Origin: Bacteroidota bacterium
GTDB taxonomy: Bacteria > Bacteroidota > Bacteroidia > Flavobacteriales_D > Sanyastnellaceae
Direction of reading: 5' to 3'
Length of the DNA: 43,472 nucleotides
Assembly: GCA_002746975.1 (NCBI GenBank)
Contig: NVXE01000004.1
Location: 191,990-235,461, forward strand
The position numbers and the translations under genes are program-made. Below the pieces are notes generated by a model that made no database searches, was not told where the DNA came from, and saw only the letters and a list, made by a program, of their open reading frames with translations. Positions 1-35,682 of this stretch are shown piece by piece. Numbering within the stretch: the first letter of the stretch is position 1; each line of letters begins with the position of its first letter.

Positions 1-1330
1 CTACAACAGAAGCTTTACCAGATGAAGCAGCTGTGAAAGATAGACTAGTGTTATCAGAGAATGGGTTAGGGTAAACGTTAACGCTAGAAGTAAGATCGTT
101 CTCAGTGATTCCAGTTACTGAAGTCACCTCCATGCCTGCAACTTCTGTTGAGAAGTCTGTTGTTCCGTCGTAAGACCAAACTTCACTAATGTAAGTAATA
201 CCGTCCATTGACACTACTGAAGCTGAACCGTCTGAGTAATCACCCCATTGTGAAGCCCAAAGGCCGTCACCGTATGCATCGTACATAGTGAAAACGTAAC
301 ACTCATTTAAATCGAGAGCAACGTCCCAAACAAATTCAGTATCAACTTGTCCACCTAGTGCACCCTCAGCGATACCATCAATAAACGTTCCATTAGTAGA
401 ATAGATATCCCAGTAAGTCTCTTCTGGCCAGTTATCTGTAGTAATACGTACCTGTACATAAGATGTAGATTCTGTAGATCCAGTAACACTAACGGCATCT
501 TCAGAAGACCAAGTAGAACCATTAACGGCTATTAAAGTGTAGTCTAACTCACCTACTTCAGTATATGTACCGAGGTCTACAGATTCGTTTCCTCCATTAG
601 AAAGAACCCCTTCCCACATTACGTCAGCTTGTGCAACACCATTGAGTGATACAGAGAAAGTCATAGCAATTACATCATCACTACCTAGGTTAGAAACAGA
701 AGTAGAAGCAGTCCATTCAGTTCCGCCACAAGCAGATGTATCGCCGTTGTATGACATTAAAGGAGCAGGTCCCGTAATTGCGTTAGCACAGTCTACGAAA
801 GCAGCAGATACGTGTCCATCAAAAGTAGCTTGTCCAGATTCTACAAGTGTGTACTCTATTTCACCAGTAGTTTCGTTAATCATTCCGTTAGGACAAACAG
901 TATAAATAGTAGGGTAGTAAGTGTTACCGTAAGTATCAAACAGCCCTTCCATATTATCGAACATAGGGAATGGAGTTCCAGTAATCCAATCACCTACAGT
1001 ATTAGATCCAGTTCCTGCTAAATCATCAGCGTTAGTAGCTCCATCTGACTCCAAAGAGAAAATGTAAAGGTCTCCAGTACCGTTTGGTCCGAAAGTTGAC
1101 CAAAGATCTTCTAGTATTCCAGTCTCCTTGTAAGACCAACACGGGCCACACCATGTAGCGTAGAAATCAAGGATTACAGTGTTTCCTCCATCAAGAAGGT
1201 CGTATAAATTCCACTCGACACCATTGATGTCAGTTGCAGTGAAATCAGGTGCGATAGATCCGTCAGGAAGTTGCGCAAGAGCAGTCGTACCTATGGTAAG
1301 TGCTGCGAAAAGAAGGTAAATATGCTTCAT
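1..1330 (-). CDS. T9SS-sorted thioredoxin-fold protein, 3' end beyond window
   Basis: The frame is open from an ATG at 1330 down to the left edge, giving 443 visible codons without the stop. A signal peptide ends near residue 20 (AxA-Q type). A thioredoxin-like domain follows, with the redox motif WCGPC (cysteines 61 and 64) after DFYAT and a later YYPTIY segment of the cis-proline type. The middle holds β-sandwich-like segments, including a YDAYGDG motif common in Bacteroidota secreted proteins. The last visible residues (VYPNPF onward) begin a T9SS type A sorting domain. I infer a disulfide oxidoreductase or peroxiredoxin-like protein exported across the outer membrane and held at, or released from, the surface. 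The substrate is unknown. A -7-like box lies 53 bases upstream. The two genes upstream on the same strand encode a DUF6029 barrel and a second thioredoxin-fold protein. Confidence 0.88.
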   Translation of the reverse strand, partial: MKHIYLLFAALTIGTTALAQLPDGSIAPDFTATDINGVEWNLYDLLDGGNTVILDFYATWCGPCWSYKETGILEDLWSTFGPNGTGDLYIFSLESDGATNADDLAGTGSNTVGDWITGTPFPMFDNMEGLFDTYGNTYYPTIYTVCPNGMINETTGEIEYTLVESGQATFDGHVSAAFVDCANAITGPAPLMSYNGDTSACGGTEWTASTSVSNLGSDDVIAMTFSVSLNGVAQADVMWEGVLSNGGNESVDLGTYTEVGELDYTLIAVNGSTWSSEDAVSVTGSTESTSYVQVRITTDNWPEETYWDIYSTNGTFIDGIAEGALGGQVDTEFVWDVALDLNECYVFTMYDAYGDGLWASQWGDYSDGSASVVSMDGITYISEVWSYDGTTDFSTEVAGMEVTSVTGITENDLTSSVNVYPNPFSDNTSLSFTAASSGKASVV

Positions 1331-1424: not shown

Positions 1425-3098
1425 TTAAAAGCTCGAAGTAAAGGTTATTTCCATCCCATTTGATGCAGGAACAGCTCTGCAAACACCTCCAACACAGAAA
1501 ATTCCCTCGCGTCTTTTTCCATAACCGACACTTAATCTATGAGCCCCGTTTATATACCCGGCAGACCCGTAGATATAATGAACTCTTTTTGCTTCATCGG
1601 GATTGCCAAAGTTGTACTGATCCATTACACTTGCAAACCAGTGTGGACTCCAAGTATATTCAGCTACGACAGTAGCCCAATCGCCTTTGTCTTGTTCGGT
1701 TAATAGAGCTTGAAATTCTGTTCTTAAAGATTGACGTTTTGCTGTTTTGATTTGGGTTTCCAGAACGAAAATATCAGCAAATACTATCCCCTTGTAATCA
1801 GTTGTGACAGGAGTGGCTAATGTGTTGAATTGAAGATTCATATACATAATTTTCGCCTTGAAAGTTTTAGAGAATTTACGCTCCATTTCAAAGCTTATAT
1901 CTCGCACGTTAAGGGAGTCACCGAACCCCCAGCTATTCCTTTCATATCCATAAAGATCTCCGTTAACCCCTTCAAGAGCTGTAGTATCTAAGCTATACGA
2001 GGTCGCGTAAGCCAAACTCATCTTAGTTCCATATTTCCCACCTAATTTCGAACCTCTTTTAAGACTATAATAAAGCTCACCTCTAAGGCTAGACTCTCCG
2101 TTTACAACTGTTGCGTATGGGTATAATGTAGCCGCTAAATTATATGTGTGAGTTTTTGTAATAGCGGGAATGTAATTAACAGGAGCGTCAAACAGCAGAA
2201 GATTTCTGTCAGATCGGAAACTCATGTTATCTGTAGTAGACCTTTTAAATAAAAAATTGATGTCTTTTACATTTCCAGTTAGGAAGTACATTAAGGCACC
2301 TCCTTTTTTATAGATAAATCCATTATCTGCTGAAGGGTCATTAATTTTGGTAGCATAAGTTACCCCACCCCTCCAGGTGCCGTATTGAATAGTTGTACCG
2401 TAATCCCATACTCCTACATTTAAAGGAAGTTCAAGAATTAATGTATCCTTGATAATATTACCTCCTGCTTGAAAACGACTGACGAAAGAATAGTTGGGAA
2501 TAATTTTTAATTTGGCCTCATTTAATGTCGGTATTAATTCGTTTAGGTCTACCTCGACACTACCTCCTCTCAGGATGCCTTCTCCATTGATAAGACCGTC
2601 ATTAAAGTCAAGTCTTTGTTTACCATAAATCATCTTTAGAGTAATTGCCTCAACAGGGTTTAGTATAAGTCTTACTCCATCTAAAGCATTGTCAAGACCT
2701 AAATTCCTTGCTTCGTAGGTCCTTAATGTGAAGCCAGATCCGAATTGCTCATAAAAATTCCCTACTGTGACATCCACACCGTGCTCTTTATCATTCCATC
2801 TTGCATATCGATATCCTATGCCCGACCCTTTAAACCTACCAGGGAAACCTAGTACACTATTTAAGTATGACTCGTATCTAATTCCGGAAGAGAACCCCCC
2901 TTTAGTATAAATCAAGTTTGCATATGCATTAAACCCCGTTTTAGATGGTGGCACAACCGCACCTATAAGAGTATCCTCTTGATATGATTGCCACAGAACG
3001 GAAACGTTTCCAGTAATAACGCCAGGGTCACTTTCTTGAGCATTCGTTACACCACTTATAAGAAATACAAGCGTAACTAAAAGTGTTAATTCTCTCAT
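1425..3098 (-). CDS. DUF6029 family outer-membrane β-barrel protein
   Basis: The product is 557 residues: a signal peptide (cleavage near residue 20), then alternating aromatic/polar β-strand sequence typical of an outer-membrane barrel, and a C-terminal phenylalanine as in substrates of the BAM machinery. I recognise the DUF6029 family from its overall sequence and from the C-terminal FCVGGVCR signature. Its function is unknown. The only two cysteines in the protein are in that signature (C535 and C540). The start lies 5 bases after the stop of the upstream TlpA-like gene, so the two are probably co-transcribed. The T9SS thioredoxin-fold gene follows downstream. That context suggests a link to thiol chemistry at the envelope, but this is inference. 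Confidence 0.82.
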   Translation of the reverse strand: MRELTLLVTLVFLISGVTNAQESDPGVITGNVSVLWQSYQEDTLIGAVVPPSKTGFNAYANLIYTKGGFSSGIRYESYLNSVLGFPGRFKGSGIGYRYARWNDKEHGVDVTVGNFYEQFGSGFTLRTYEARNLGLDNALDGVRLILNPVEAITLKMIYGKQRLDFNDGLINGEGILRGGSVEVDLNELIPTLNEAKLKIIPNYSFVSRFQAGGNIIKDTLILELPLNVGVWDYGTTIQYGTWRGGVTYATKINDPSADNGFIYKKGGALMYFLTGNVKDINFLFKRSTTDNMSFRSDRNLLLFDAPVNYIPAITKTHTYNLAATLYPYATVVNGESSLRGELYYSLKRGSKLGGKYGTKMSLAYATSYSLDTTALEGVNGDLYGYERNSWGFGDSLNVRDISFEMERKFSKTFKAKIMYMNLQFNTLATPVTTDYKGIVFADIFVLETQIKTAKRQSLRTEFQALLTEQDKGDWATVVAEYTWSPHWFASVMDQYNFGNPDEAKRVHYIYGSAGYINGAHRLSVGYGKRREGIFCVGGVCRAVPASNGMEITFTSSF

Positions 3099-3103
3099 AA
3101 TTA

Positions 3104-3601
3104 TTAATCTACCAGCTTAAGAATCTCCTCATATAATTCCTCCTCATCTCCTTCTGCGTAATTGTTATGAGTCCAAACAATTTCCCCCTCTCCATTTACA
3201 AGAAAAGTATGAGGAACGTTAATTACTTGCATAGCTCGAGCAAACTCCTTTGCTGGATCAAGTAGAATGTCGAATTCCCACCCAGCACTGCTAGTATATG
3301 GCCCAACACGATTAGTAGAGCGACTATCATCTATACTTACTGCGATTATCTTTACTCCTGTTTCTTCTTGCCAATCAGCGTAGTAGTCCATGTAATTATT
3401 TAACTCTCTTTTACAAGGGCTACACCAAGTTGCCCAGAAACAAATAACGATAGGATTACCATCATTTTCGAAGGCTCCTGTGTCAATTGTGGTTCCTGTA
3501 AGGTCTTTAAGTTTTACAGAAGGAACAGTTTGTGCGCTAATGGTTGGGAGTAAAGATGAAGCGAAAAACACAGCTATAGCAAGGCTTTTTGCATAATTCA
3601 T
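3104..3601 (-). CDS. TlpA-family thioredoxin-like protein
   Basis: The product is about 165 residues, with a signal peptide followed by a TlpA/ResA-type thioredoxin fold. The motif CFWATWCSPCK carries the redox cysteines (C60 and C63 from this start), and VPHTFLVNGEG supplies the cis-proline loop. Such proteins reduce or shuffle disulfides in the periplasm, often for cytochrome c or envelope protein maturation. No membrane anchor or lipobox is clear. An in-frame ATG at 3625 would add eight residues. I prefer 3601 because it gives a compact signal peptide and has a -7-like box 5 bases upstream. The gene leads an apparent operon with the DUF6029 barrel and is divergent from the T9SS protein at 3699. 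Confidence 0.85.
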   Translation of the reverse strand: MNYAKSLAIAVFFASSLLPTISAQTVPSVKLKDLTGTTIDTGAFENDGNPIVICFWATWCSPCKRELNNYMDYYADWQEETGVKIIAVSIDDSRSTNRVGPYTSSAGWEFDILLDPAKEFARAMQVINVPHTFLVNGEGEIVWTHNNYAEGDEEELYEEILKLVD

Positions 3602-3606
3602 TCCGT

Positions 3607-3614
3607 TAAAATTA
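3607..3614 (-). promoter_or_regulatory. candidate -7 box close to the TlpA-like start
   Basis: On the minus strand this reads TAATTTTA, a one-mismatch form of TAnnTTTG, with 5 bases between it and the ATG at 3601. If used, the transcript would have almost no leader. A chance match in AT-rich DNA is possible. Confidence 0.3.
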
Positions 3615-3685
3615 GATTTAATCATGATACAATTTTTCTTAATAGGTGTTGCAAAGAAACGGCTTTCTCATCATAGTAGATGTAT

Positions 3686-3698: not shown

Positions 3699-4496
3699 AT
3701 GTTTTATACCAAACTCAAAAACCTTGTTCTAGCGACTTTTATTTTGGCCGCAGGAAACACGTTCTCACAATCGATAATCTCACCGTCGGATACTATTTTC
3801 GCCGCTCTCGATACTTTAAACGAACTCCATTATGGAGAAATATCCATTCATTGGGACGTAATAAATGAGTCAGATACAGATATGGTTCTAATGTGCACTC
3901 GCAATTTTATAGATACGGTATCACCATTCAATTACCCTTATGTTCAATCAACGGAGGGGAATTTTATTCCTGGAGCTTATGAGAAGTTTTGTTGGGGTCC
4001 GCTATGTTACAATTTTGGAACAGACGCTTCTTCTTCAAATTCGTCTATGCTAGTTACAATACTTCCAAGTGAAATAAATAACACCTTTATAGCATATTAT
4101 TATCCGAATGATATTGTCGGAACGACAACCATGGAGTATTGTTTTCATCCAGTAGGAGATGATACGATGTCTTCGTGCAAACAAATGACTTATGTAATTT
4201 CAGCAACCGCAGGACTTGAGGAAGATATAGAAAATGATGTATCATCGGCAATAACTTCGGTGTATCCTAACCCATTGGATGGATCTGGATTTATAGAGTA
4301 TAATCTTAGAAAAGGCGAGGTAGGAATCTTGATTTTTCGTGATTTAACTGGAAAGGAAATTAAGAGAGTCGGAGGTTTGGTATATAGTGGAAAAGTGAAT
4401 ATTGAAGCAAGTGAATTTGTGCAAGGACTCAGTTTTTGCACATTGGAAGTTGATGGCGTAGCTGTTGATACAGAGAGATTTATCGTTATTCGATAA
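3699..4496 (+). CDS. secreted protein with T9SS type A sorting domain
   Basis: From the ATG at 3699 the product is 265 residues. It has a signal peptide (ending TFSQ), a roughly 160-residue β-rich domain, and a C-terminal T9SS type A sorting domain beginning at SVYPNPLDGSG and running to the end. The N-terminal domain contains six scattered cysteines, including an FCWGPLCY segment. I have seen this domain type in other Bacteroidota secreted proteins but know no function for it. The frame extends upstream to an ATG at 3624, but that would bury the signal peptide behind 25 extra residues and overlap the divergent TlpA-like gene. It lies 14 bases ahead of the malic enzyme gene. The neighbouring thiol oxidoreductase may help fold it, which is inference. 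Confidence 0.82.
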   Translation: MFYTKLKNLVLATFILAAGNTFSQSIISPSDTIFAALDTLNELHYGEISIHWDVINESDTDMVLMCTRNFIDTVSPFNYPYVQSTEGNFIPGAYEKFCWGPLCYNFGTDASSSNSSMLVTILPSEINNTFIAYYYPNDIVGTTTMEYCFHPVGDDTMSSCKQMTYVISATAGLEEDIENDVSSAITSVYPNPLDGSGFIEYNLRKGEVGILIFRDLTGKEIKRVGGLVYSGKVNIEASEFVQGLSFCTLEVDGVAVDTERFIVIR

Positions 4497-7398: not shown

Positions 7399-10300
7399 GT
7401 GAATAGGGTGAAAATCAAAGGCACAGCGATTTTATTTGCTTTAGCGACTGTATTGTGCAGTTTTTCGGCTGAAGCACAAACTTCGACGGACTCTACAGAG
7501 ATAGATTTACCTTTCCCTCATGGGGGAGAAGACGCATATAATCCAATTGAATTTCCTGGGGGGATTTCATTAGATTGGCCATCTAACTTTAACTACAATG
7601 TTGTTTATGACCCTGTGTCCGGTCAATATATTGTAGCCCAAACCATAGGTGACACACTTGATTTCCGCCCTGCATCTCTATTTTCGTTAGACGAGTTTCT
7701 CAATTACGATATGCAAGGAAACCTATCAGAGTTTTGGGATCAATTACAAGAAGAAGATGACGAGGCAAGTAGAGGATTTGCTCCTAAGCTTGAGATAGAT
7801 TCTGAGTTGTTTGAAATGCTATTCGGAACAAATGAAATAGAGATAATTCCACAAGGAACAGCAGAGCTTACATTCGGAGTTAATAGTTCGAAAACAGACA
7901 ATCAAAGAATACCTGAACGACAACGAAGAGTAACTACTTTTAATTTCGACCAGAGAATTCAACTTAATATTTCCGGAAAGATTGGAGATAAGATTGAGCT
8001 AGGCACTCAATACAATACAGAATCTTTATTCGATTTTGAAAACCAAATGAATATAGGTTTTCAAGGCGAAGAAGATGATATCCTAAAGAATATTGAGGCG
8101 GGAAATATTTCTCTCCCGCTACAGGGAACTCTAATAACGGGCTCACAAAGTTTATTTGGTTTAAAGCTTGAAACACAGTGGGGAAGGCTATATAACTCTA
8201 CGGTTCTTTCGCAACAAAAGGGAGAACGTAAGGAGATTGAAGTAAAGGGAGGAGCTCAAACACAAGAGTTTGATATTCGTGCTGATGACTACGAAGCAAA
8301 CCGTCATTATTTTTTATCGCAATTTTTCCGTAATCAGTATGATAACGCCATGCGTTCGCTTCCCGTTCCTAACTCAGGTGCTGCCATTAATAGAATAGAG
8401 GTTTGGGTTGTAAATACCCAAGCTAATACTCAAGACGTAAGAAATATTATCGCTGTAACAGATTTGGGTGAGCATAAGGACTATATGTCCTCAAACCTTC
8501 CTATAACTCAACTAACTGATGGGCCGGGAACGTCTCCGACATCTAATAGAGCGGCAAATAATGCCAACAACGACATTTTTGAAGACCTTATAAATAACGA
8601 TGCGGTAATGGCTTTTTCAGGAGCTAACGCTGCCATTCTAGACATGAATATGGACTTCGTACAAGGAGTTCACTACGAGAGAGTAGGAAATGCAAGGAAA
8701 TTAATGGCTTCGGAGTACTCATACAATTCTAAGCTCGGATTCATCTCTCTTCGTCAATCTCTAAATAATGCAGAAGTACTTGCGGTTGCATATGAGTACA
8801 CTCTTAATGGAAATACCTATCAAGTAGGAACACTGTCTCAAGACGGTTATACTACAGGTTCAGGCTCTAACGAATCCATGGGAGCGCTCGTACTTAAAAT
8901 GCTTAAATCGAGTATTACTCAGCTCACCCTAAGTAATGGAGATCCATCACCACTTTGGACAGGAATGATGAAGAACGTATACTCTATGCGAGCTTTTGGG
9001 GTAAGCAATGAAGAGTTTAGACTAGATGTTTGGTATAATGACCCATCGACGGGTGTTGACCTAAATTACATTCCGCGATCTCCACTTGATGGAACGCTTT
9101 TAATACAGTTATTGGGCTTAGACAGAATGGATATAAATACCATGCCTAATCCAGATGGTGTATTCGATTATATCGACAATGCTGCTACAGAGGGTGGAAC
9201 AATTAATAGCCAAAACGGTAGAATTTTCTTTCCTTCAGTAGAACCTTTTGGAGATAATTTAAGAAAGATGATTAACGATAGGGTGTCTGACCCTAATCTG
9301 GCGGCATCTTTAATTCAAACGTTGGTTTTCGACCCACTTTACGATTCAACAAAGACAGCTGCCCAGCAAATACCATCTCTAAATAGATATCACATTAAGG
9401 GTAGGTTTCAGTCTCAAAGTAGTTCAGAAATTGCCCTCAATGCACTAAACGTTCCCGAGGGGTCAGTTACTGTTACGGCAGGTGGTGTTAGGCTTGTGGA
9501 GAATCGTGATTATACGGTGGATTACAATTTGGGACGTGTAAGAATTATTAATGATGGTCTTCTTGAATCAGGCCAAACTATTCGAGTTTCTCTCGAAAGT
9601 AATTCACTATTTAACATTCAAACAAAGACCTTAATTGGAACAAGATTTGACTATGTAGCGAGCGATGATTTTACAATCGGAGCTACTTTTTTAAATATGA
9701 AGGAAAGACCTTTAACTCAAAAGGTTAATATAGGTGATGAGCCAGTAAACAACACGATTCTTGGAACGGATTTCACTTGGCAAACGGAATCGCGCTTTCT
9801 TACAAATCTTGTCGATAAGCTACCTTTTTACGAAACTTCTGCTACCTCAACATTAGACATAAGTGCTGAGGGGGCATATTTAATTCCGGGACACAGTAGG
9901 GCGATAGGAGAAGAGGGAAATGCTTACATCGATGATTTTGAGGGTTCTCAATCTACAATAGATATTAGGTCTGTTTCAAGATGGTTCTTAGCATCTACAC
10001 CTAAACTTCAAAATGATCTATTTCCAGAATCTGCAATTGAAGATTCTTTATTGTATGGATATAACCGAGCGGCCTTAGCTTGGTACACAATAGACCCGTC
10101 TTTTTATTCTGGTAATGGGTTAGAGGATGGTCAAGTTTCTGACGAAGTGCGCCAGGATCATAGAATGAGACAGATACTCGAGCAAGAGATTTTTCCTAAC
10201 CGAGATTATCAGCCTGGAACTCCTAGAAATATACCGACCTTCGATTTATCATTTTGGCCTAGCGAAAGAGGCCCTTATAACTATGAGTTGCCAGAAGGAG

Positions 10301-13300
10301 CTGCAGGCTATTCATCTGGACTTTCCGAAAATGGGGGGCTTGAAGAACCATCTACGCGTTGGGGTGGAATTCAGAGAGCTCTTACTACTACAGATTTCGA
10401 ATCGGCTAATATTGAATATATACAGTTCTGGATAATGGATCCTTTTAATGAGGATTCGGATAATTCTACTGGGGGAGACTTGTATTTTAATATAGGAAAT
10501 GTTTCTGAAGATATTCTCAATGATAGTCAGCTAGAGTTTGAAAACGGTCTTCCTTCTTCTACGAATATAGATCTTCCCACAGATACGAGTTCATGGGCTA
10601 TTTACCCCGATCCTTCAACATTTAATGTTGTTAACGCTTTCGATAACTCATCAGGTAGTTATAGTATGCAAGATGTGGGGCTTGATGGTATGAGTTCATC
10701 AACTGAGCGGGAGTTTTTTTCAGACTGGTTACTCGAAGTTGAGGAATCAGGAGTTCTTACTCCTGAGGCAATGTCTAATATAGAAAATGACCCTTCGGGA
10801 GATGATTTCAGGTATTTTAGAAACCCCACTTCTCAAGCTTTAGAGGAGAACATCATCGATAGATACAGATACTACAGTCTATATGAAGGAAACTCAAATA
10901 CAAGCTCACCAGATGGTTATCCCATCACGTCTACAACTATTCCCAACAGTGAGGATATTAATCAAGATATTACGTTAGGTACCATAGAGAGTTATTATCA
11001 GTATAAAGTTTCTTTAAGACCTTCAGACTTAGGTGAATCAAATGTTGGTAATAATTACATTACGGATGTGTATGAAACACTAAGCCAAAGCGCTACATCC
11101 AATAACCAGAAACCTATAAAATGGTATCAGTTTAAAATCCCAGTAAAGGAGTATGAAAAGAGAGTAGGTACTATTTCGGATTTCCGATCAATTCGATTTA
11201 TGAGAGTGTTTATGAAGGGATGGAGTCAACCCGTTACATTACGGTTCGCACGTATGGAACTCGTACGCGGAGAATGGCGTAAGTACAGTGGTTCTTTAGC
11301 AGGAGAACAAGAGGTAGAGCCTGAAGATCCATCTGCGACGACATTTAATATATCAGCTGTAAATATCGAGGAGAACGGAAATCGTGAGCCAGTTGCTTAT
11401 GTCACTCCTCCAGGAATTATTCGTGAAATTGATGTAGCTACAGCTAACCAACGTCGTTTAAATGAGCAGTCGTTAGCAATGGAGGTTTGCGATTTGGTGG
11501 ACGGAGACGCAAAAGCGGCGTATAGAAATATAAATTACGACATGAGAATGTACAAGCGTCTGCGTATGTACTTTCATGCAGAACCCGGACCTGACGGGAC
11601 CACCCTTAATAGTGGAGATTTAACAGCTTTCGTCAGATTGGGAAGTGATTTCGATGCAAACTATTATGAGTATGAGATTCCGTTATCTGTTACACCGTGG
11701 TACACAGGTGATGCAGATTTGATTTGGCCTCAGGCAAATAACATGGATATAGAGCTTCAGAAATTACAAAATTTGAAGATTAATAGACCAGTGGGTCAGC
11801 CTCTTTTCCAAGAATATTCTGAGTATGACGGTGTTGCTAGAATATCGGTTAAGGGAAATCCTAATCTAGCCAACGTTGTTACAGTAATGATAGGAATTAG
11901 AAATCCGGATAAAGATTCAAATGTGTTTAGCGACTCGGATGATGGATTGAATAAATGTGCTGTTGTTTGGGCAAACGAATTGAGACTTGCCGATTTTAAC
12001 GAAAAAGGAGGTTGGGCTGCAGTAGCACGTGTCAATGCAACTCTTGCAGATCTCGGAAATGTTAGTGTGGCGGCAAACATGTCAACTCCTGGGTGGGGTG
12101 GACTTGAGCAAAGAGTGCAAGAACGTTCTAGAGAGACGATACGAGGTATAGACGCTAATGGTACGATTCAGCTAGGAAAGTTGCTACCCCAAAAATTAGG
12201 TGTTTCATTGCCCATGTATGTTGGGTATTCGGAGCAAGTTACTACTCCTCAGTACGATCCACTTTCCCCAGATATTGAGCTTGCAGATCTTGAATTGTCA
12301 CCTGAGCGTCTGGATAGAACTCAGGAGGTAAATAGACTAAAGAGTATAAATTTTGCGAGTATCAAGATAAACCCTCAATTTGGATCTGGTGGCGGTTCTA
12401 GTGATAGAAATAGTCGAAATAGAAGTGGTGATCGTTCCAAGGATGATGTAACATCTATGCGTGAGGGAATGGGCGGACAGGGAGCGATGATGAATAGTCG
12501 TGGAGGCGGAAGAGGAGCTTCAGGAGGGCGAGGTGGATCGGGATCGTCAGGGCCATTTTCTTTTTTAAAGATTAGCAATTTTACGGCTAACTACAGCTTT
12601 AATGAATTATATCGCAGGGATATAAACACTGAATTTCAATTAAATAGGGAGCACAGAGGAGGTTTGGCATATAACTGGCAGAATAGACCTAAGCAGCACA
12701 AACCTTTTTCAAATATCAAGCTTATTCGCGAGAGTGTAATGCTGAAATGGTTGAAGGATTTTAATTTCTATCTTCTTCCAAAGCAAGTTTCTATGAATAC
12801 TCAAATGAACAGGGTATATGAAACTAGTCGTGTGAGAAACAATACGGCTGATTTATTAGGTGTTGAGAATACACTTCTTGTACAAACTCAAGTCCTTAAG
12901 TCTTGGCAGTGGTCACGTAATTATTCTGTAAAGTACGATCTTACTCAGGCCTTAAAATTCGACTATACGGGACAAGCTTCCGCATTAGTAGGCGAGCCTG
13001 CTGGTGTAATTCCAGTATCAGGTGAGGATGGATATGATCACTACATAGATACTGTAAGGACGAATCTGTTAGGTGCAGGTGAAGTCACGACTTATAATCA
13101 CAGTGTGAATGGGTCTTATAAACTCCCATTCGATAAGATTCCGTTGATGGAGTTTATTACGGGTGATGTTAGGTACCAAAGCTCATTTCGTTGGGATAGA
13201 GCACCATTCGCTCAGGATACTTTAGGATCGACAATACAAAACTCTAGAAACCTAAGTCTAAATGGTCAAGCAAATTTTGTGAAGCTTTATAATAAAGTAC

Positions 13301-14844
13301 CTTATTTAAAGGAGATAAATAATAAAAGACCTAAGCGACCGAGTAATAGAAATGTCAATAATGAAAGGAGAGATGGGTTTGGTGAAATCATCGAAGAAGA
13401 GAAGGAGAAAATAGAGATTAACCCTATCGAGCATATTCTGCGTTTTGCTATGGGAATTCAAAATATTAGCGGAACTTTCTCTAGAAATGAAGGGATATTA
13501 TTACCTGGTTATGGACGATCAAGTCGTTGGGGCGGATTCGATGACGATCTTCAAGCTCCGGGATTGTTATTTCTAGTAGGGCACCAAAACACGGATGTTT
13601 TCGGAAATAGAACTTCGGATTTCGCAGTAAACGCAGCTCAACAAGGTTGGTTGGTTCAGCAGCCTTATTTGAATCAGCAATACACAGAGTCTTTTACTGA
13701 GAATTTCAATATTCGAATGAATATTGAGCCGATTAAACATTTTAAAATAGAGCTTACTGCTAATAGATCTACTTCTAGAAATCAACAAAGTTTCTTTAGA
13801 TATGACGAGGTAACGGAAGATTGGGTTTACGAATCGCCAAATGAGACAGGCAATTTTACGGCTACTATTATGTCTTGGCCTACTGCATTTATTGCTGACG
13901 ATGAGGAGTATAATTCTGAAATTTGGTCTGACTTATTACTAAATAGACTTGTCATATCATCACGTTTAAACGATGCAACGTTCAATGTAGACGAACCAAA
14001 TCCAACAGGATATTACCAAGGCTGGGGCCCTACTTCACAAGACGTTGCAATTCCAGCTTTTTTGAGTGCTTACTTAGGACTCGATCCTAATTCAGTTTCA
14101 TTAGACGTTATGAAGTCTCCGGTTGCACCTAACTGGAGAGTGACTTACGATGGGTTGAGCAAAATACCATCTTTAAAAAAGACTTTTAGAAGGTTTAATC
14201 TTACTCATACCTATCGCTCGACAATGAGTACGTCGTATACCACAAATCTTCAATATACTCAAGATGAAAATAACCTACCTACTTCTGTAGATAATGGTGA
14301 CTATGCAAATTATATATCTGAACGTCAATTTAATACAGTAAGTATTACGGAGCAATTATCGCCTCTAATAGGTTTGGATATGACCATCAAGACGGCCTCG
14401 GATAACGAGCCTCAAGTTAAGGTGGAGATTACTAGAGATAGAAATGTGAGCTTTGGTCTTTCTAATTACCAAATTACTGAAACTAAGAGTAAGGGAATAG
14501 TAATCGGTGTGGGATACAAATTTGCTGACGTACGAAATCCGTTCCTAAAGACATACGGAAAGCTACCAATCAAGATGTTTAAGGAGACAGATTTTCTTAT
14601 TCGCTGTGATATCAACATTCGCGATAATAGCACTGTAATTCGAAAGTTGGTTGAACGTCAGAACCAGATTACAGCGGGACAAACTCTAATTTCAATAAAA
14701 ATATCGGGAGACCTTGAGATTAGCGATAAGGTAACTCTACGTGCTTTTTACGACCAGCAGATTACTAAAGTAAAGATTTCGTCTTCATTTGACACTTCTA
14801 ATATTAATTCTGGAGTGGCAATTCGTTTTAACCTGACTCAATAG
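7399..14844 (+). CDS. sprA: T9SS outer-membrane translocon protein SprA (Sov)
   Basis: The product is 2481 residues, the expected size for SprA, which forms the very large β-barrel translocon of the type IX secretion system. It starts with GTG at 7399 and a signal peptide ending SAEAQ. A plug/N-terminal region follows (for example RRVTTFNFDQRIQLNISGKIGDK), then long β-strand-rich stretches and the family-typical segment YIDDFEGSQSTIDIRSVSRW. About residues 1660-1717 form a low-complexity insert rich in Gly, Ser, Arg and Asp, probably an exposed loop. In Flavobacterium SprA is needed for gliding and protein secretion. No other core T9SS gene (porK, porL, porM, porN, porV) lies in the window. 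The upstream gap of 27 bases suggests co-transcription with ruvA. Confidence 0.96.
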   Translation: MNRVKIKGTAILFALATVLCSFSAEAQTSTDSTEIDLPFPHGGEDAYNPIEFPGGISLDWPSNFNYNVVYDPVSGQYIVAQTIGDTLDFRPASLFSLDEFLNYDMQGNLSEFWDQLQEEDDEASRGFAPKLEIDSELFEMLFGTNEIEIIPQGTAELTFGVNSSKTDNQRIPERQRRVTTFNFDQRIQLNISGKIGDKIELGTQYNTESLFDFENQMNIGFQGEEDDILKNIEAGNISLPLQGTLITGSQSLFGLKLETQWGRLYNSTVLSQQKGERKEIEVKGGAQTQEFDIRADDYEANRHYFLSQFFRNQYDNAMRSLPVPNSGAAINRIEVWVVNTQANTQDVRNIIAVTDLGEHKDYMSSNLPITQLTDGPGTSPTSNRAANNANNDIFEDLINNDAVMAFSGANAAILDMNMDFVQGVHYERVGNARKLMASEYSYNSKLGFISLRQSLNNAEVLAVAYEYTLNGNTYQVGTLSQDGYTTGSGSNESMGALVLKMLKSSITQLTLSNGDPSPLWTGMMKNVYSMRAFGVSNEEFRLDVWYNDPSTGVDLNYIPRSPLDGTLLIQLLGLDRMDINTMPNPDGVFDYIDNAATEGGTINSQNGRIFFPSVEPFGDNLRKMINDRVSDPNLAASLIQTLVFDPLYDSTKTAAQQIPSLNRYHIKGRFQSQSSSEIALNALNVPEGSVTVTAGGVRLVENRDYTVDYNLGRVRIINDGLLESGQTIRVSLESNSLFNIQTKTLIGTRFDYVASDDFTIGATFLNMKERPLTQKVNIGDEPVNNTILGTDFTWQTESRFLTNLVDKLPFYETSATSTLDISAEGAYLIPGHSRAIGEEGNAYIDDFEGSQSTIDIRSVSRWFLASTPKLQNDLFPESAIEDSLLYGYNRAALAWYTIDPSFYSGNGLEDGQVSDEVRQDHRMRQILEQEIFPNRDYQPGTPRNIPTFDLSFWPSERGPYNYELPEGAAGYSSGLSENGGLEEPSTRWGGIQRALTTTDFESANIEYIQFWIMDPFNEDSDNSTGGDLYFNIGNVSEDILNDSQLEFENGLPSSTNIDLPTDTSSWAIYPDPSTFNVVNAFDNSSGSYSMQDVGLDGMSSSTEREFFSDWLLEVEESGVLTPEAMSNIENDPSGDDFRYFRNPTSQALEENIIDRYRYYSLYEGNSNTSSPDGYPITSTTIPNSEDINQDITLGTIESYYQYKVSLRPSDLGESNVGNNYITDVYETLSQSATSNNQKPIKWYQFKIPVKEYEKRVGTISDFRSIRFMRVFMKGWSQPVTLRFARMELVRGEWRKYSGSLAGEQEVEPEDPSATTFNISAVNIEENGNREPVAYVTPPGIIREIDVATANQRRLNEQSLAMEVCDLVDGDAKAAYRNINYDMRMYKRLRMYFHAEPGPDGTTLNSGDLTAFVRLGSDFDANYYEYEIPLSVTPWYTGDADLIWPQANNMDIELQKLQNLKINRPVGQPLFQEYSEYDGVARISVKGNPNLANVVTVMIGIRNPDKDSNVFSDSDDGLNKCAVVWANELRLADFNEKGGWAAVARVNATLADLGNVSVAANMSTPGWGGLEQRVQERSRETIRGIDANGTIQLGKLLPQKLGVSLPMYVGYSEQVTTPQYDPLSPDIELADLELSPERLDRTQEVNRLKSINFASIKINPQFGSGGGSSDRNSRNRSGDRSKDDVTSMREGMGGQGAMMNSRGGGRGASGGRGGSGSSGPFSFLKISNFTANYSFNELYRRDINTEFQLNREHRGGLAYNWQNRPKQHKPFSNIKLIRESVMLKWLKDFNFYLLPKQVSMNTQMNRVYETSRVRNNTADLLGVENTLLVQTQVLKSWQWSRNYSVKYDLTQALKFDYTGQASALVGEPAGVIPVSGEDGYDHYIDTVRTNLLGAGEVTTYNHSVNGSYKLPFDKIPLMEFITGDVRYQSSFRWDRAPFAQDTLGSTIQNSRNLSLNGQANFVKLYNKVPYLKEINNKRPKRPSNRNVNNERRDGFGEIIEEEKEKIEINPIEHILRFAMGIQNISGTFSRNEGILLPGYGRSSRWGGFDDDLQAPGLLFLVGHQNTDVFGNRTSDFAVNAAQQGWLVQQPYLNQQYTESFTENFNIRMNIEPIKHFKIELTANRSTSRNQQSFFRYDEVTEDWVYESPNETGNFTATIMSWPTAFIADDEEYNSEIWSDLLLNRLVISSRLNDATFNVDEPNPTGYYQGWGPTSQDVAIPAFLSAYLGLDPNSVSLDVMKSPVAPNWRVTYDGLSKIPSLKKTFRRFNLTHTYRSTMSTSYTTNLQYTQDENNLPTSVDNGDYANYISERQFNTVSITEQLSPLIGLDMTIKTASDNEPQVKVEITRDRNVSFGLSNYQITETKSKGIVIGVGYKFADVRNPFLKTYGKLPIKMFKETDFLIRCDINIRDNSTVIRKLVERQNQITAGQTLISIKISGDLEISDKVTLRAFYDQQITKVKISSSFDTSNINSGVAIRFNLTQ

Positions 14845-31140: not shown

Positions 31141-34100
31141 TTATTTTGCCATCAAAGTGATAGTCCCAGCTCGCTGAATCTTTCTCCCGTCACTAAGTAT
31201 AGCTACTGCTTTATACGCATAAACGTCTTGCGGAGCTAGATTGCCGTCTACATAACCGTCCCATCCGATATTTACATCGGAGGAGTAAAAAATTTGTTCG
31301 CCATTCTTATTAAAAACGAACAGCTCGTAATCTATAATCCCTGAGTGCATAGGTCGGAAGACATTGTTATCGTATGATTGAGGATCATATAGTCCACCGT
31401 TTCCTCCGCCCGTAAGAGGAGTGAAAGCTGTAGGAAATGTCATTATGCCTCCAGGTTTTGCAATTACTGCTTCAGCTAAGGTGAAAGTAGTTGAACACCC
31501 CCACTCATTGTCTGCAGTTAATGAAACTGTGTAAATGCCCGCTGTGGTGTATTCGTGTATGGGGTGTTCGCTGTTAGATATTTCTCCGTCTCCAAAAGAC
31601 CAAACAAAATCTGTCGCATCCGAAGATAAATTCATGTAGTAAATAGGCTCGCCTGGAGCGAAAACTTCAGTCGGGGTTAAGGTAAATGCTGCTTGAGCTT
31701 GTGGGTACACAGTTACAGTTGAGTAATGGATTTCATTGAGAACAGTACCTTCATATCCGTACACTTCTAGTTTTATATCGTAAGTTCCTGGTTGAGTGTA
31801 TGTGTGAGATGGATGTTCAGCGGCGTGGGTGGTTCCGTCACCGAAATCCCAGCGATATTCTTCAGCATATTGTGAGAAATTTGTAAAGGCTACAGTTAAA
31901 GGAGCACATCCTTCTCCTCCTCCCATAAAGCTTATTTCAGGTGAGGGAGCGAGAATTTGAACGGTTTGGGATGAATTATCTGAGCAATACCCATTACTAA
32001 CTTCAAGAGTAACGTTAAAAGTACCCCAAGATTCGTAAGTATGACTGCCGGGATTTTCATCAGTACTAACTATACCGTCACCGAAATTCCACATACTTGA
32101 ACTAGAATTTCCAGCAAGAGTAGTGTTTTCAATATTTACAGTTGCATTTGGGAATGTTTGTAAAATAGGGGTGGTATTGAATCCTGCAATAGGAGCGGCA
32201 TAAACCTCAATGTTAGTTCTTATTGTGTCGGTACAGCCGAAAGCAGAAGTTACAGTAAGTGAAATAGTGAAAGTAGTATCATCGTCTAAAGAAGGTGAAG
32301 TGAAGGTGTGGGAAGGTTCGAAACTACTATTCACAGATCCGTCACCGAAATCCCACTCGAATGAATTTGCACCTGAGCTATTATTTAAAAAAGTAACATC
32401 AAAGGGAGAACATCCCTGTTGTGGAACATCGAAAGACGCTTCAATTTCAGGAAGAACTTCAATCAAAACTTGATCTTGAGAAGAACATCCACTATTCGTA
32501 GATGCTGTTAACGTTGCCGTATATGTTACCGGCTCGTTTGAGGGATTGAAGTAATTAAATGTGTGTACCGCAGCCGTTTCGTTTGATATTTCACCTGTTC
32601 CGTAATACCAATCTAAATTATCCGCACCTTGAGAATTGTTGTTGAACGTCACCTCTAATGGATAACAACCTGTCATGGTTGCAATTTCAATATCGGCAAT
32701 AGGTGTCGCTAGAACTTCTACGTCTATTGAAGTAGAGCCAGAGCAGCCATAAATACTCGATCCATCTAGCGTTACGGTATATGTAGTATCGGAATAACTA
32801 GGATTAACAAATACGTGGGTAGGTTGATCTGCAGGTGATTCTGGAGAACCATCTCCGAAATTCCAAACGAAGCCTGCGTTTGAGTTGAGGCTTTGGTTTA
32901 CAAAAACAACATTTAATGGAGAACAAGAAGCTGAAGGAACGAGAAAGTTTGGAACTACTTCTGGGTATAGCTCTACAGAGATTACGTCTGTGTCAATACA
33001 TCCGCCTTCGCCTTCTACAACTAATGTTACTTCACGCATTACTGATCCCATTCCCTGATGCTCAAAGATATATTCATGAGAAGAATTTACTACCCCACTA
33101 CTTTGCCCACCATCACCATAAGTCCAGGTAAGGTTAACGGCTCTTTCACTACTATCTGTAAAATTTACCGTAAGTGGAGCACAACCGACTTGAATATCTG
33201 CCGAAAACTGTGCTATGGGCTGAGGGTTTACACTTATTTCAGTGCTGAATTGTCCTGGGCAACCAAATTCAGAAAGCCCTACCACTGATAATGTATGCGC
33301 TTCGACAAATTCTGTATTATTTGTGTACACATGAGTTGACATAGGTATCGTAGAGTCAGGTGAACCATCTCCGAAAGTCCAAGTAATATCTACTGCTCCC
33401 CCTAATGAAGGCATTTGGATTGCAAAAGGAGAACACCCCACATTTTCAGGAAGAATGAAATCAAAACCCGCTTCAGGATAAACAGAGACTCCCACAACAG
33501 TAGTATCGTGACATCCATTATCAGCATATGCTACAAGCTGAACAGGAAAGGTTTTCAAGAACCCAGTGGTGTTATCAAATGTATGTGTAGGGTTTGTATC
33601 AACACTCAAACTACCATCAGTAAAATCCCATGAGTATGATGATGCGTCAGTCGAGTTGTTTGTGAATATGACAGACATAGGAGCACAACTTGGTTCAGGA
33701 GCGATAAATGAAGATTGTGCACCAGGAAGAGTCGCAAGTAAAATAGTGTCACGAGCAATACATCCAAATGGGCTTGTTGCACTAACAACGGCTTCGAATG
33801 TAGTGCCAGCAAGACTTTGACTTAAATACGTATGCGAAATATTTGCTGTAGGTGAACCCAGTCCGTCGCCAAAATCCCACACCACATTTGCATCTAAATC
33901 ACTAAGCGCTTCGAAGTTTACTAAGAGGGGAGTACATCCATTCACAACATCGGAGGTTGCAGCTATGGAAGGAGCGGGTTCAACATTTATTGAACTAGTC
34001 AATGAATTAGTGCAATTGGTTGTAGAAATACTTAAAGTTGCATCGAACAAACCAGGTGTGATATATTGATGTGTAGGATGTTGAATTATAGACGTTAAAC

Positions 34101-35682
34101 CGTCTCCGAAAGTCCAATCCCACTGAATAATAGAGTCTCCTCCAGCTGCTAAAGATAGGTCGGTGAATGATGTTGGATTACCCTCACAAACTATCCCGCT
34201 GATAAAATCTACTGTGGGACTTTCAAACACTTCAGGAATAGCATTTACTGTCCTTACACAACCATTTGCTCCTGTTACTTCAAGACCCACTACGTAAGTT
34301 CCTGGCGTGTCAAAGAAAAGCTCAGGTGTTGTAGGCCCATTAAATGTACCTGGAGCTACGTTAAATGTCCAATCATAATTTATTCCCTCTCCGCTTGTTT
34401 CTTGTGCTATTGCAGAAAATGAGTCACACCCTACAGATTGAGAAAGCTCTATAATCGCAGCAGGAGCAGGCTTTACAATAATGTCAAACCGAGCAGTGTC
34501 ATTACATGAATTCGCTTGACCAGCTAACCCGACGACTCCTAGTACGGAAAAACTACCGGGATTATTAAATGTCCACGTCATAGACTGAGATCCACCAGGA
34601 TACCATTGTCCCACTCCATTATTAAAATTCCAATAGAAAGAAGTAGCCTCCATTTCATCATGAACGAAAACAGACGGGAGGCCCTCACAAACTTGGTTTG
34701 GCCCTGAAAGATTAGTAGAAAGAGGAGGACGAACAATTAATTCAATTTGAGTAGAGTCAATACCGCAATAACTTGAGTCATAAAGCATTACGATATAGCT
34801 ACCTATTCCAGGCAGAGCTAAATCGAATGGTGCGGAAGAAATCCAAGGTCTCCAGTCAATAATTTCATCGATGCCATCATTGTCTAAATCTCCAAAATTC
34901 CACTTTTCAAACCTTTGATTAGTATTTCCATTTGCCGTGCAGTTCATTTCTGTAATATTAGAAAGCTGGACGGTGGTGTCGGGGTAACATAGCTGGGTTG
35001 ATGAAGCTCCTATAATTGCATTATCTAAATCCCAAATATTGATATAGTCTATAGTAACGCTGGCTCCAGTACCAAACTCTTTATTACGACAAGCGTTTGT
35101 TGCATAAAGAGTTACCGGCCTATTACACCCAGTACTCCCTGCGAAGTAATCGTGGGAAACAGTTGCCCCAGCATTAGATGCCCCGAAGTTTACAGAAGCC
35201 CCGTCATCAAACCCCCAAGTAAATGTTGTAGTAGAGCTGACGTTAGTTGAAGAGTTTACGAAGCTTAAAGTTGCTGGAGCACAAGCGTCAGTAATCCACC
35301 CCTGAGGTATTGTTATAGAAGGATTTACCGGCTCCTCTTTAATCAATTCCCCTACCACTATACACCCGGTATTGCTTGTAAATGTTAATGTGTATACAGC
35401 CCAAACATCAGAATAGCTATGCGTCAATGCGTTTCCAGTTACCCAAGACCCGAACACTTCAGGAGCAGATCCATCACCCCAGTCCACAGTTAAACCAGCC
35501 CAATCACTTGAAGTTTGTATAAAAATGTCAAATACACCAGGATTACAATTATACCAAGTAGGTGTATTTGTAGCATTATCGAATGCGTCGATAAGATCAG
35601 GGCATTGCGCATTAGTGTTAATCCCTAAAAGAGTTAAGAGACCAAACGTTGCTACGACACGGAGAGATTTAGGACAATACAT
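31141..35682 (-). CDS. giant PKD-repeat surface protein with T9SS type B sorting domain
   Basis: The product is 1513 residues. A signal peptide (to about residue 25, NTNAQ) is followed by about sixteen PKD-like β-sandwich repeats, most with a WxFGDG motif and a later HxF/Y, and a C-terminal gliding-motility-associated domain (from about MTFPTAFTP to the end), the T9SS type B signal. Such proteins are carried across the outer membrane and act as adhesins; SprB is the known model for gliding. Nearly every repeat has one cysteine near its start (GCxPLxVxF) and one near its end. The paired PorP/SprF gene follows. Whether this organism glides cannot be read from the window. Confidence 0.93.
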   Translation of the reverse strand: MYCPKSLRVVATFGLLTLLGINTNAQCPDLIDAFDNATNTPTWYNCNPGVFDIFIQTSSDWAGLTVDWGDGSAPEVFGSWVTGNALTHSYSDVWAVYTLTFTSNTGCIVVGELIKEEPVNPSITIPQGWITDACAPATLSFVNSSTNVSSTTTFTWGFDDGASVNFGASNAGATVSHDYFAGSTGCNRPVTLYATNACRNKEFGTGASVTIDYINIWDLDNAIIGASSTQLCYPDTTVQLSNITEMNCTANGNTNQRFEKWNFGDLDNDGIDEIIDWRPWISSAPFDLALPGIGSYIVMLYDSSYCGIDSTQIELIVRPPLSTNLSGPNQVCEGLPSVFVHDEMEATSFYWNFNNGVGQWYPGGSQSMTWTFNNPGSFSVLGVVGLAGQANSCNDTARFDIIVKPAPAAIIELSQSVGCDSFSAIAQETSGEGINYDWTFNVAPGTFNGPTTPELFFDTPGTYVVGLEVTGANGCVRTVNAIPEVFESPTVDFISGIVCEGNPTSFTDLSLAAGGDSIIQWDWTFGDGLTSIIQHPTHQYITPGLFDATLSISTTNCTNSLTSSINVEPAPSIAATSDVVNGCTPLLVNFEALSDLDANVVWDFGDGLGSPTANISHTYLSQSLAGTTFEAVVSATSPFGCIARDTILLATLPGAQSSFIAPEPSCAPMSVIFTNNSTDASSYSWDFTDGSLSVDTNPTHTFDNTTGFLKTFPVQLVAYADNGCHDTTVVGVSVYPEAGFDFILPENVGCSPFAIQMPSLGGAVDITWTFGDGSPDSTIPMSTHVYTNNTEFVEAHTLSVVGLSEFGCPGQFSTEISVNPQPIAQFSADIQVGCAPLTVNFTDSSERAVNLTWTYGDGGQSSGVVNSSHEYIFEHQGMGSVMREVTLVVEGEGGCIDTDVISVELYPEVVPNFLVPSASCSPLNVVFVNQSLNSNAGFVWNFGDGSPESPADQPTHVFVNPSYSDTTYTVTLDGSSIYGCSGSTSIDVEVLATPIADIEIATMTGCYPLEVTFNNNSQGADNLDWYYGTGEISNETAAVHTFNYFNPSNEPVTYTATLTASTNSGCSSQDQVLIEVLPEIEASFDVPQQGCSPFDVTFLNNSSGANSFEWDFGDGSVNSSFEPSHTFTSPSLDDDTTFTISLTVTSAFGCTDTIRTNIEVYAAPIAGFNTTPILQTFPNATVNIENTTLAGNSSSSMWNFGDGIVSTDENPGSHTYESWGTFNVTLEVSNGYCSDNSSQTVQILAPSPEISFMGGGEGCAPLTVAFTNFSQYAEEYRWDFGDGTTHAAEHPSHTYTQPGTYDIKLEVYGYEGTVLNEIHYSTVTVYPQAQAAFTLTPTEVFAPGEPIYYMNLSSDATDFVWSFGDGEISNSEHPIHEYTTAGIYTVSLTADNEWGCSTTFTLAEAVIAKPGGIMTFPTAFTPLTGGGNGGLYDPQSYDNNVFRPMHSGIIDYELFVFNKNGEQIFYSSDVNIGWDGYVDGNLAPQDVYAYKAVAILSDGRKIQRAGTITLMAK
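31480..35560 (-). repeat. tandem PKD-domain array within the surface protein
   Basis: About sixteen diverged PKD-like units of roughly 75-95 residues lie in series. The core motif varies: WDFGDG, WNFGDG, WTFGDG, WTYGDG, and degenerate forms such as WYYGTG and WNFNNG. Units near the N-terminus are more diverged than those in the middle and C-terminal half. The DNA itself is not obviously repetitive, which suggests an old array rather than recent duplication. Confidence 0.8.

Follow-up and report, generated by a model that had tools for sequence, protein, structure and literature searches.

A gene for a DUF6029 outer-membrane barrel, carried by a 43,472-nucleotide stretch of a Bacteroidota genome (hereafter the window), belongs to a set of four genes that we propose to be a thiol-redox module passing thiol equivalents across the outer membrane, a function to which we would give a little less than an even chance. 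The barrel's cysteine pair, combined with a co-inherited inner TlpA-like protein and with cysteine-pair proteins bearing surface signals, makes it a candidate outer-membrane thiol carrier. In the genome sequences the case consists of conserved parts and cysteines, gene linkage, gene fusion, co-occurrence and co-absence. The module stands as a real finding, on evidence stronger than the initial annotation of the window, made from its letters, could know.

Gram-negative bacteria can bear thioredoxins at their surface, HBP35 being the studied case, and we know of no route that keeps such proteins reduced outside the outer membrane. A pore accompanied by thioredoxins on both its inner and its outer side and by one more cysteine-pair protein would be a direct candidate for this route. 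If so, DUF6029 would gain a function, and thiols would join the means of carrying redox power over an outer membrane. Our search of the open-access literature, in the text that it makes accessible, found no description of such an outer-membrane thiol system; DUF6029 came up in one study of OPX proteins alone, whose accessible text hints at a role connected with polysaccharides (PMC9603273).

The DUF6029 barrel and its conserved cysteine pair

The barrel gene (1425-3098, minus strand) encodes 557 amino acids, and PF19494 covers residues 1-557 of the product (E 8e-148; 493.8 bits against a cut-off of 27). Translation of the open reading frame agrees with the initial annotation in that C535 and C540 are the only cysteines. 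They form a C-x4-C pair, 22 and 17 residues from the C-terminus, in the hairpin FCVGGVCR (residues 534-541; 1476-1499, minus strand). This C-terminal motif was found in the present analysis and lies outside the Pfam definition of PF19494.

A PF19494 profile search gave matches in 98 of 395 genomes of the phylum. The profile-found set used here comprises 98 loci from 97 genomes; L129 (genome G227) was excluded, being below the cut-off and matching profile positions 2-110 only, and L128 (G183), also below the cut-off, was kept since its protein ends in the motif. A pattern search detected C-x4-C in 96 of the 98 loci, and in 97 once L066, a gene interrupted by two N's with the motif in its second piece, was read past the interruption (97/99 if L129 is included). 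The sole miss is a truncated gene, L068 (G226), where the DUF6029 match spans profile positions 1-355 only and the surrounding stretch contains no C-x4-C piece. The initial annotation had named FCVGGVCR as a family signature, correctly as it turns out, and the conservation of the cysteines among homologues, on which the initial annotation had staked its idea, thus brought no refutation. The inner residues of the motif vary (CVGGVC, CTSGIC, CIGGVC, CTNGVC and others) and both cysteines are constant. In an alignment of 41 profile-found sequences the pair is present in 41/41, the next-best cysteine column reaching 4/39.

C-x4-C is likewise found in 79 of 80 named loci (the best 80 of 587 relatives), the exception, L143, being cut by a contig end; these loci were partly fished with patterns from the cysteine hairpin and from loop 116-138, and their count is therefore no independent test of conservation. 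The alignment of named barrels covers 76 of the 80 (L139, L143, L158 and L197 were left out, L158 for no good reason). The named and profile-found sets overlap partly, and L043 and L166 look identical. Loci L109-L128, mostly of family f24, encode divergent barrels with CTSGICY (CNAGICY in L110) in place of C[VI]GGVCR. The operon also occurs in L132, on a contig labelled Euryarchaeota archaeon, with a barrel 70% identical to that of the window; this is probably a mislabelled bin.

Predicted structure of the barrel

Structure prediction, which the initial annotation had proposed as a check, gave a confident AlphaFold model of a barrel (mean pLDDT 93.2, pTM 0.85), with 24 strands by our own count on the DSSP assignment. 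Because strand 1, starting at residue 27, directly follows a signal-like helix, the barrel shows no plug domain of its own, and no plug-sized insertion was seen in the model either. The hairpin strands (532-536 and 539-543) are modelled within the loop joining the final two strands of the barrel, with C535 opposite C540. Provided that the C-terminus is periplasmic, which holds for known barrels of this kind, strand parity predicts that this loop, with its cysteine hairpin, is extracellular.

Among the 41 profile-found barrels, conservation is highest in the cysteine-hairpin loop (0.82) and in loop 116-138 (0.80), with 0.55 for the strands. Residues facing the lumen score a little higher than those facing outward (0.60 vs 0.51), the two classes having been assigned by hydropathy alternation.

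The best structural matches of the model are usher pores, the match to FimD (3ohn_A; Z 17.8, rmsd 4.6, 374 residues aligned) spanning barrel residues 27-557. AlgE is also matched (Z 14.3), and the Foldseek matches include a chain of the Mtr complex (6r2q_B, E 2.4e-7) which we take to be MtrB. The absence of a family, for instance Wzi, from these match lists was not counted as evidence. Searching solved structures with the barrel's sequence returned nothing meaningful (best E 0.2), NCBIfam gave no family for it, and Pfam at E up to 0.1 gave PF19494 alone, with no usher family and no MtrB-type family.

The upstream TlpA-like gene: linkage and fusion

A TlpA/ResA-like thioredoxin-fold gene with a WCSPC motif (3104-3625, minus strand; PF00578, E 3.7e-21, and PF08534) ends 5 bp upstream of the DUF6029 gene on the same strand. 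Its product carries an N-terminal signal-like segment, as judged by eye, and combines an AhpC-TSA/Redoxin fold with WCxPC. The nearest solved chains are 2m72_A and ResA (ResA chains, E 7e-16), and the NCBIfam ResA subfamily NF002854 scores 76.4 bits against a cut-off of 170; on its sequence the protein is a relative of ResA and not ResA itself.

Adjacency was counted on all open reading frames, as greedy calling hides TlpA genes behind antisense frames. In 78 of the 98 profile-found loci the gene immediately upstream, in the same orientation, is TlpA (77 before correction of an overlong frame); the others comprise one fusion, five divergent neighbours, two loci with one gene between, one contig edge and 11 without TlpA. 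For the named loci the figure is 75/80 (74 before correction), with two contig edges and three without. Pfam assigns AhpC-TSA to 77 of the 97 directly upstream genes (the remaining locus is at a contig edge) and Redoxin to equally many. Five places upstream, these families are found in at most 1/84 genes (neither is listed with at least two members), the 84 being those present in the stretches with at most 900 residues. A neighbourhood with thioredoxin-fold genes no more frequent than chance, which had been named as the other ground for rejecting the idea, is thus not what the genomes contain. By our own TlpA profile, the barrel has such a neighbour in 76 of 98 loci, against 29 of 904 for genes two or more places away from it, and 9 of 568 for such distant genes in the named loci; the profile was trained on adjacent WC.PC genes and so favours adjacency, a bias that the Pfam counts do not have.

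In genomes G292 and G412, the two examined genomes of one genus, TlpA and barrel form a single chain with no intervening stop (667 and 671 residues, 67% identical to each other), and no second signal peptide was seen at the junction. In the family of G292 (60 genomes), matches to the TlpA part and to the barrel coincide in 18 genomes, and the remaining 42 lack both among the matches listed; a TlpA match was taken as at least 100 bits or a fusion, the next TlpA-part match listed scoring 44 bits. Other candidate fusions were rejected, G417, G406 and G430 on account of stop codons between in-frame gene pairs, and L062 and L135 as overlong frame calls.

Downstream and putative outer partners

On the other side of the barrel, a T9SS-tailed thioredoxin-fold protein with WCGPC is encoded by a gene that leaves the window (1-1330, minus strand; Por_Secre_tail, E 4.6e-10; AhpC-TSA, E 1.1e-6). 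It starts near 1330, 94 bp downstream of DUF6029, and its product has 498 amino acids when read from the genome. The initial annotation had placed the barrel between the WCSPC gene and this one; the order is true, but the WCGPC protein with its T9SS tail proves to be a local variant, found beside the barrel in a few close relatives only. A profile made from the 498-residue protein was promiscuous owing to its tail and was not used for counts. Beyond the window the locus continues with an Omp28-type lipoprotein (genome 190850-191716; PF11551, 72.1 bits against a cut-off of 34.9; CGNC) and then a small PF13568 barrel protein of 220 amino acids (L130:4292-4954). In several named loci, too, the gene behind the Omp28-type one is of similar size.

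An Omp28-type lipoprotein is what most often serves as third partner. Among 96 genes directly downstream of the barrel (L072 and L075 were left out of the 98), 49 match Omp28, 20 AhpC-TSA, 14 DUF1223 and 21 Por_Secre_tail, multiple matches being possible; the partner in L091 matches both Omp28 and Por_Secre_tail. Behind the divergent barrels of L109-L128, Omp28 in most cases gives way to an AhpC-TSA-type protein whose motif is CPHC or similar, an assignment confirmed by Pfam for one gene. Omp28 and DUF6029 co-occur across the 395 genomes: 76 of the 83 with Omp28 also have DUF6029, against 20.4 expected, a figure that the relatedness of the genomes inflates.

In the 59 Omp28-type proteins picked by PF11551 on the barrel's stretch, a CxxC precedes the Omp28-profile match in the same reading frame without exception (59/59). 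In an alignment of 61 relatives, out of 64 candidates picked by a CxxCP pattern, these cysteines are present in 61/61, a circular result given that pattern; C21 (the lipid cysteine), H93 and P128 show no variation there either. Most Omp28-type partners show a lipobox by eye, the lipobox and T9SS-tail patterns being crude and having mis-sorted several proteins. The Omp28-type protein of L136 is predicted to consist of a thioredoxin domain and a beta sandwich (mean pLDDT 93.5), and this model best matches HBP35 (Z 24.0, rmsd 2.5, 219 residues aligned). In Porphyromonas gingivalis, we take PG_2174 to be the DUF6029 protein and PG_2175 the TlpA-like protein (PDB 2m72). The accessible parts of two reports place PG_2174 among vesicle proteins (PMC4335976) and name PG2173 Omp28 (PMC9722745) in this species.

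The fourth part of the module (3699-4496, plus strand), absent from the scheme of the initial annotation, is divergent from TlpA and contains FCWGPLCY; its end resembles a T9SS tail, with a Por_Secre_tail match (E 0.017) below the cut-off. We chose the start at 3699, the longest reading frame starting at 3624. Homologues occur in 90 of 178 loci, from four reading frames upstream to six downstream of the barrel, and 60 of 92 hits lie two or three frames upstream on the opposite strand. Only N57, C99 and C104 are invariant in the 32 aligned N-terminal domains (32/32); judged by its sequences, the fourth part is fast-evolving. It is present in 66 of the 395 genomes at E <= 1e-7, weaker matches having been dropped (27 of 93 genomes), and 60 of these 66 also have DUF6029, against 16.2 expected, subject to the same inflation.

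Genomes in which TlpA is not beside the barrel were searched for it elsewhere. A match turned up in all 12 of them, 11 that lack an adjacent TlpA and one at a contig edge; the best is 45-60% identical in nine and 34-35% in three, where it is a putative orthologue. In nine genomes (G287, G196, G160, G389, G109, G357, G369, G314 and G212) the distant TlpA adjoins a homologue of the fourth part, with the barrel elsewhere, and the operon is therefore split into two halves. An Omp28-type gene lies directly downstream of the barrel in seven of these nine.

A possible thiol relay and its alternatives

The outer-end hairpin and the thioredoxin-fold partners with surface signals suggest that thiol equivalents may pass from TlpA to the hairpin and on to the surface. 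The proposal of the initial annotation, a chain moving thiol/disulfide equivalents or a redox-gated barrel, has partial support; the fusion, the joint presence and absence in one family, and the recurrence across lineages of a thioredoxin-fold partner with a surface-type signal all fit it. DUF6029 would be a wide pore of about 24 strands that lacks an intrinsic plug. TlpA, on the periplasmic side, would dock at or inside the pore's mouth there and exchange dithiol/disulfide equivalents by way of the pore, whose own redox contact would be the C535-C540 hairpin at the extracellular end. In the source organism, the outer partners would be thioredoxin-fold proteins exported to the surface, either in lipoprotein form or through the type IX system, together with the protein encoded at 3699-4496, with its type-IX-like tail and its own cysteine pair. 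Electrons might run from an inner-membrane DsbD/CcdA protein to TlpA, the barrel hairpin, the surface thioredoxin and finally surface targets. We consider outward reduction the likelier direction, because TlpA resembles ResA-type reductases and because the barrel gene of G210 has a DsbD gene behind it. There, a complete DsbD (DsbD_N, DsbD_TM and thioredoxin; L034:4961-7024) is encoded 28 bases downstream of the barrel on the same strand.

One difficulty for a relay is that a lone cysteine pair, placed at one end of the barrel, does not suffice to bring equivalents through the membrane; it would have to be contacted by TlpA or by a surface partner. A wide pore without a plug should, we infer, leak unless filled, and TlpA is the candidate filler because it is the most closely tied partner and is fused at the plug position in two genomes. 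That TlpA acts as a plug in the 24-strand lumen, reaching the C-x4-C pair and reducing surface thioredoxins of the Omp28/HBP35 type, is put forward tentatively, at clearly lower confidence than the relay in general. By analogy, a thiol conduit with a TlpA plug could be a cysteine counterpart of porin-cytochrome wires, a comparison offered just as tentatively.

Several observations stand against a relay. Barrel and TlpA are unlinked in 11 of the 98 profile-found loci, and three of the 80 named loci have no adjacent TlpA; the f24 barrels have AhpC-TSA-type downstream genes and not Omp28; and among the genes called in the loci searched, full-length DsbD occurs in one locus only, that of G210. The near-invariant barrel cysteines could, moreover, form a purely structural disulfide. 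On this last point rests an alternative that we hold to be rather improbable, if not by far: C535-C540 would be a structural bond, and TlpA a private oxidoreductase making, repairing or isomerising it during assembly, much as Dsb proteins mature LptD. To the extension of this alternative, in which TlpA also serves the pair of the fourth part and the barrel's own job is something else, we attach the same rather low probability. The co-inheritance of TlpA and barrel in the family of G292 would follow from such a role, as would the nine genomes in which TlpA has stayed with the fourth part, whose cysteine pair is likewise invariant, while the barrel is elsewhere; the hairpin also sets its cysteines on facing strands of the model, where a disulfide would be natural. 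Dedicated maturation thus explains the tie to TlpA nearly as well as a relay does, but not the outer thioredoxins: a recurrent CxxC thioredoxin-fold partner with a lipobox or T9SS tail is left unexplained, as is the permanent fusion of an enzyme to its client in G292 and G412.

The pore might instead pass the Omp28-type lipoprotein or the thioredoxin to the surface, with TlpA as redox chaperone or gating plug. Usher pores pass folded subunits, and they are the closest solved folds of the barrel (FimD, 3ohn_A); TlpA is also fused N-terminally, in plug-then-barrel order. Partners with a T9SS tail (21 of 96 with Por_Secre_tail, L091 for example) would, however, need no second exporter, Pfam gives no usher family match, and export of the partner would explain the pore but not the cysteines. 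We regard this role as unlikely. By far the least probable reading is a polysaccharide-export or general porin. It is hinted at in the OPX study, whose accessible text reports strong HHpred similarity to DUF6029 among its Wzi barrel hits (PMC9603273), and AlgE figures among our structural matches. Against it, the OPX family PF02563 has matches in 55 of 60 barrel genomes, yet among the matches listed none lies within 20 kb on the barrel's contig, a linkage test limited by short contigs, with the nearest at about 28 kb (G196 and G247).

Comparison with known systems

A relay through DUF6029 would resemble DsbD/CcdA in that thioredoxin-fold partners receive thiol/disulfide equivalents from the other side of a membrane. 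DsbD is helical and sits in the inner membrane, whereas DUF6029 is a predicted outer-membrane barrel matching PF19494 only in Pfam. With MtrCAB and other porin-cytochrome conduits the module shares its layout, a periplasmic redox protein, a barrel sheath and an outer redox protein; it differs in having thioredoxin folds and cysteines where those have haem wires, and DUF6029 has no MtrB family match. C42 of MtrB is described, in the accessible text of one study, as needed for iron reduction, possibly through a disulfide to another protein (PMC12175506). FimD and PapC ushers are likewise wide barrels (FimD, Z 17.8), but identity is about 10%, and DUF6029 has neither an usher family match nor a plug-sized insertion.

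HBP35 of P. gingivalis shares with the Omp28-type partner the predicted fold of thioredoxin plus beta domain (Z 24.0); most of these partners show a lipobox, whereas the signal ascribed to HBP35 is a T9SS one at the C-terminus. The accessible part of its description reports a surface form and an in vitro thioredoxin activity dependent on its two cysteines, and its authors there call the physiological role of the thioredoxin domain unknown (PMC2907840). Etrx1 and Etrx2 of Streptococcus pneumoniae are, according to the text available, lipoproteins of the thioredoxin family that belong, at the cell surface, to a redox chain of the envelope (PMC3914529); unlike the present case, their host has no outer membrane to cross.

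Other genes of the window

A few genes from the module, the window encodes SprA (7399-14844, plus strand; PF14349 SprA_N, E 1.8e-175), the type IX translocon. Between the two lie a malic-enzyme/phosphotransacetylase gene and a ruvA-like gene, the latter recognized by eye. Further along, a 1513-residue protein with repeated PKD domains is encoded on the minus strand (31141-35682).
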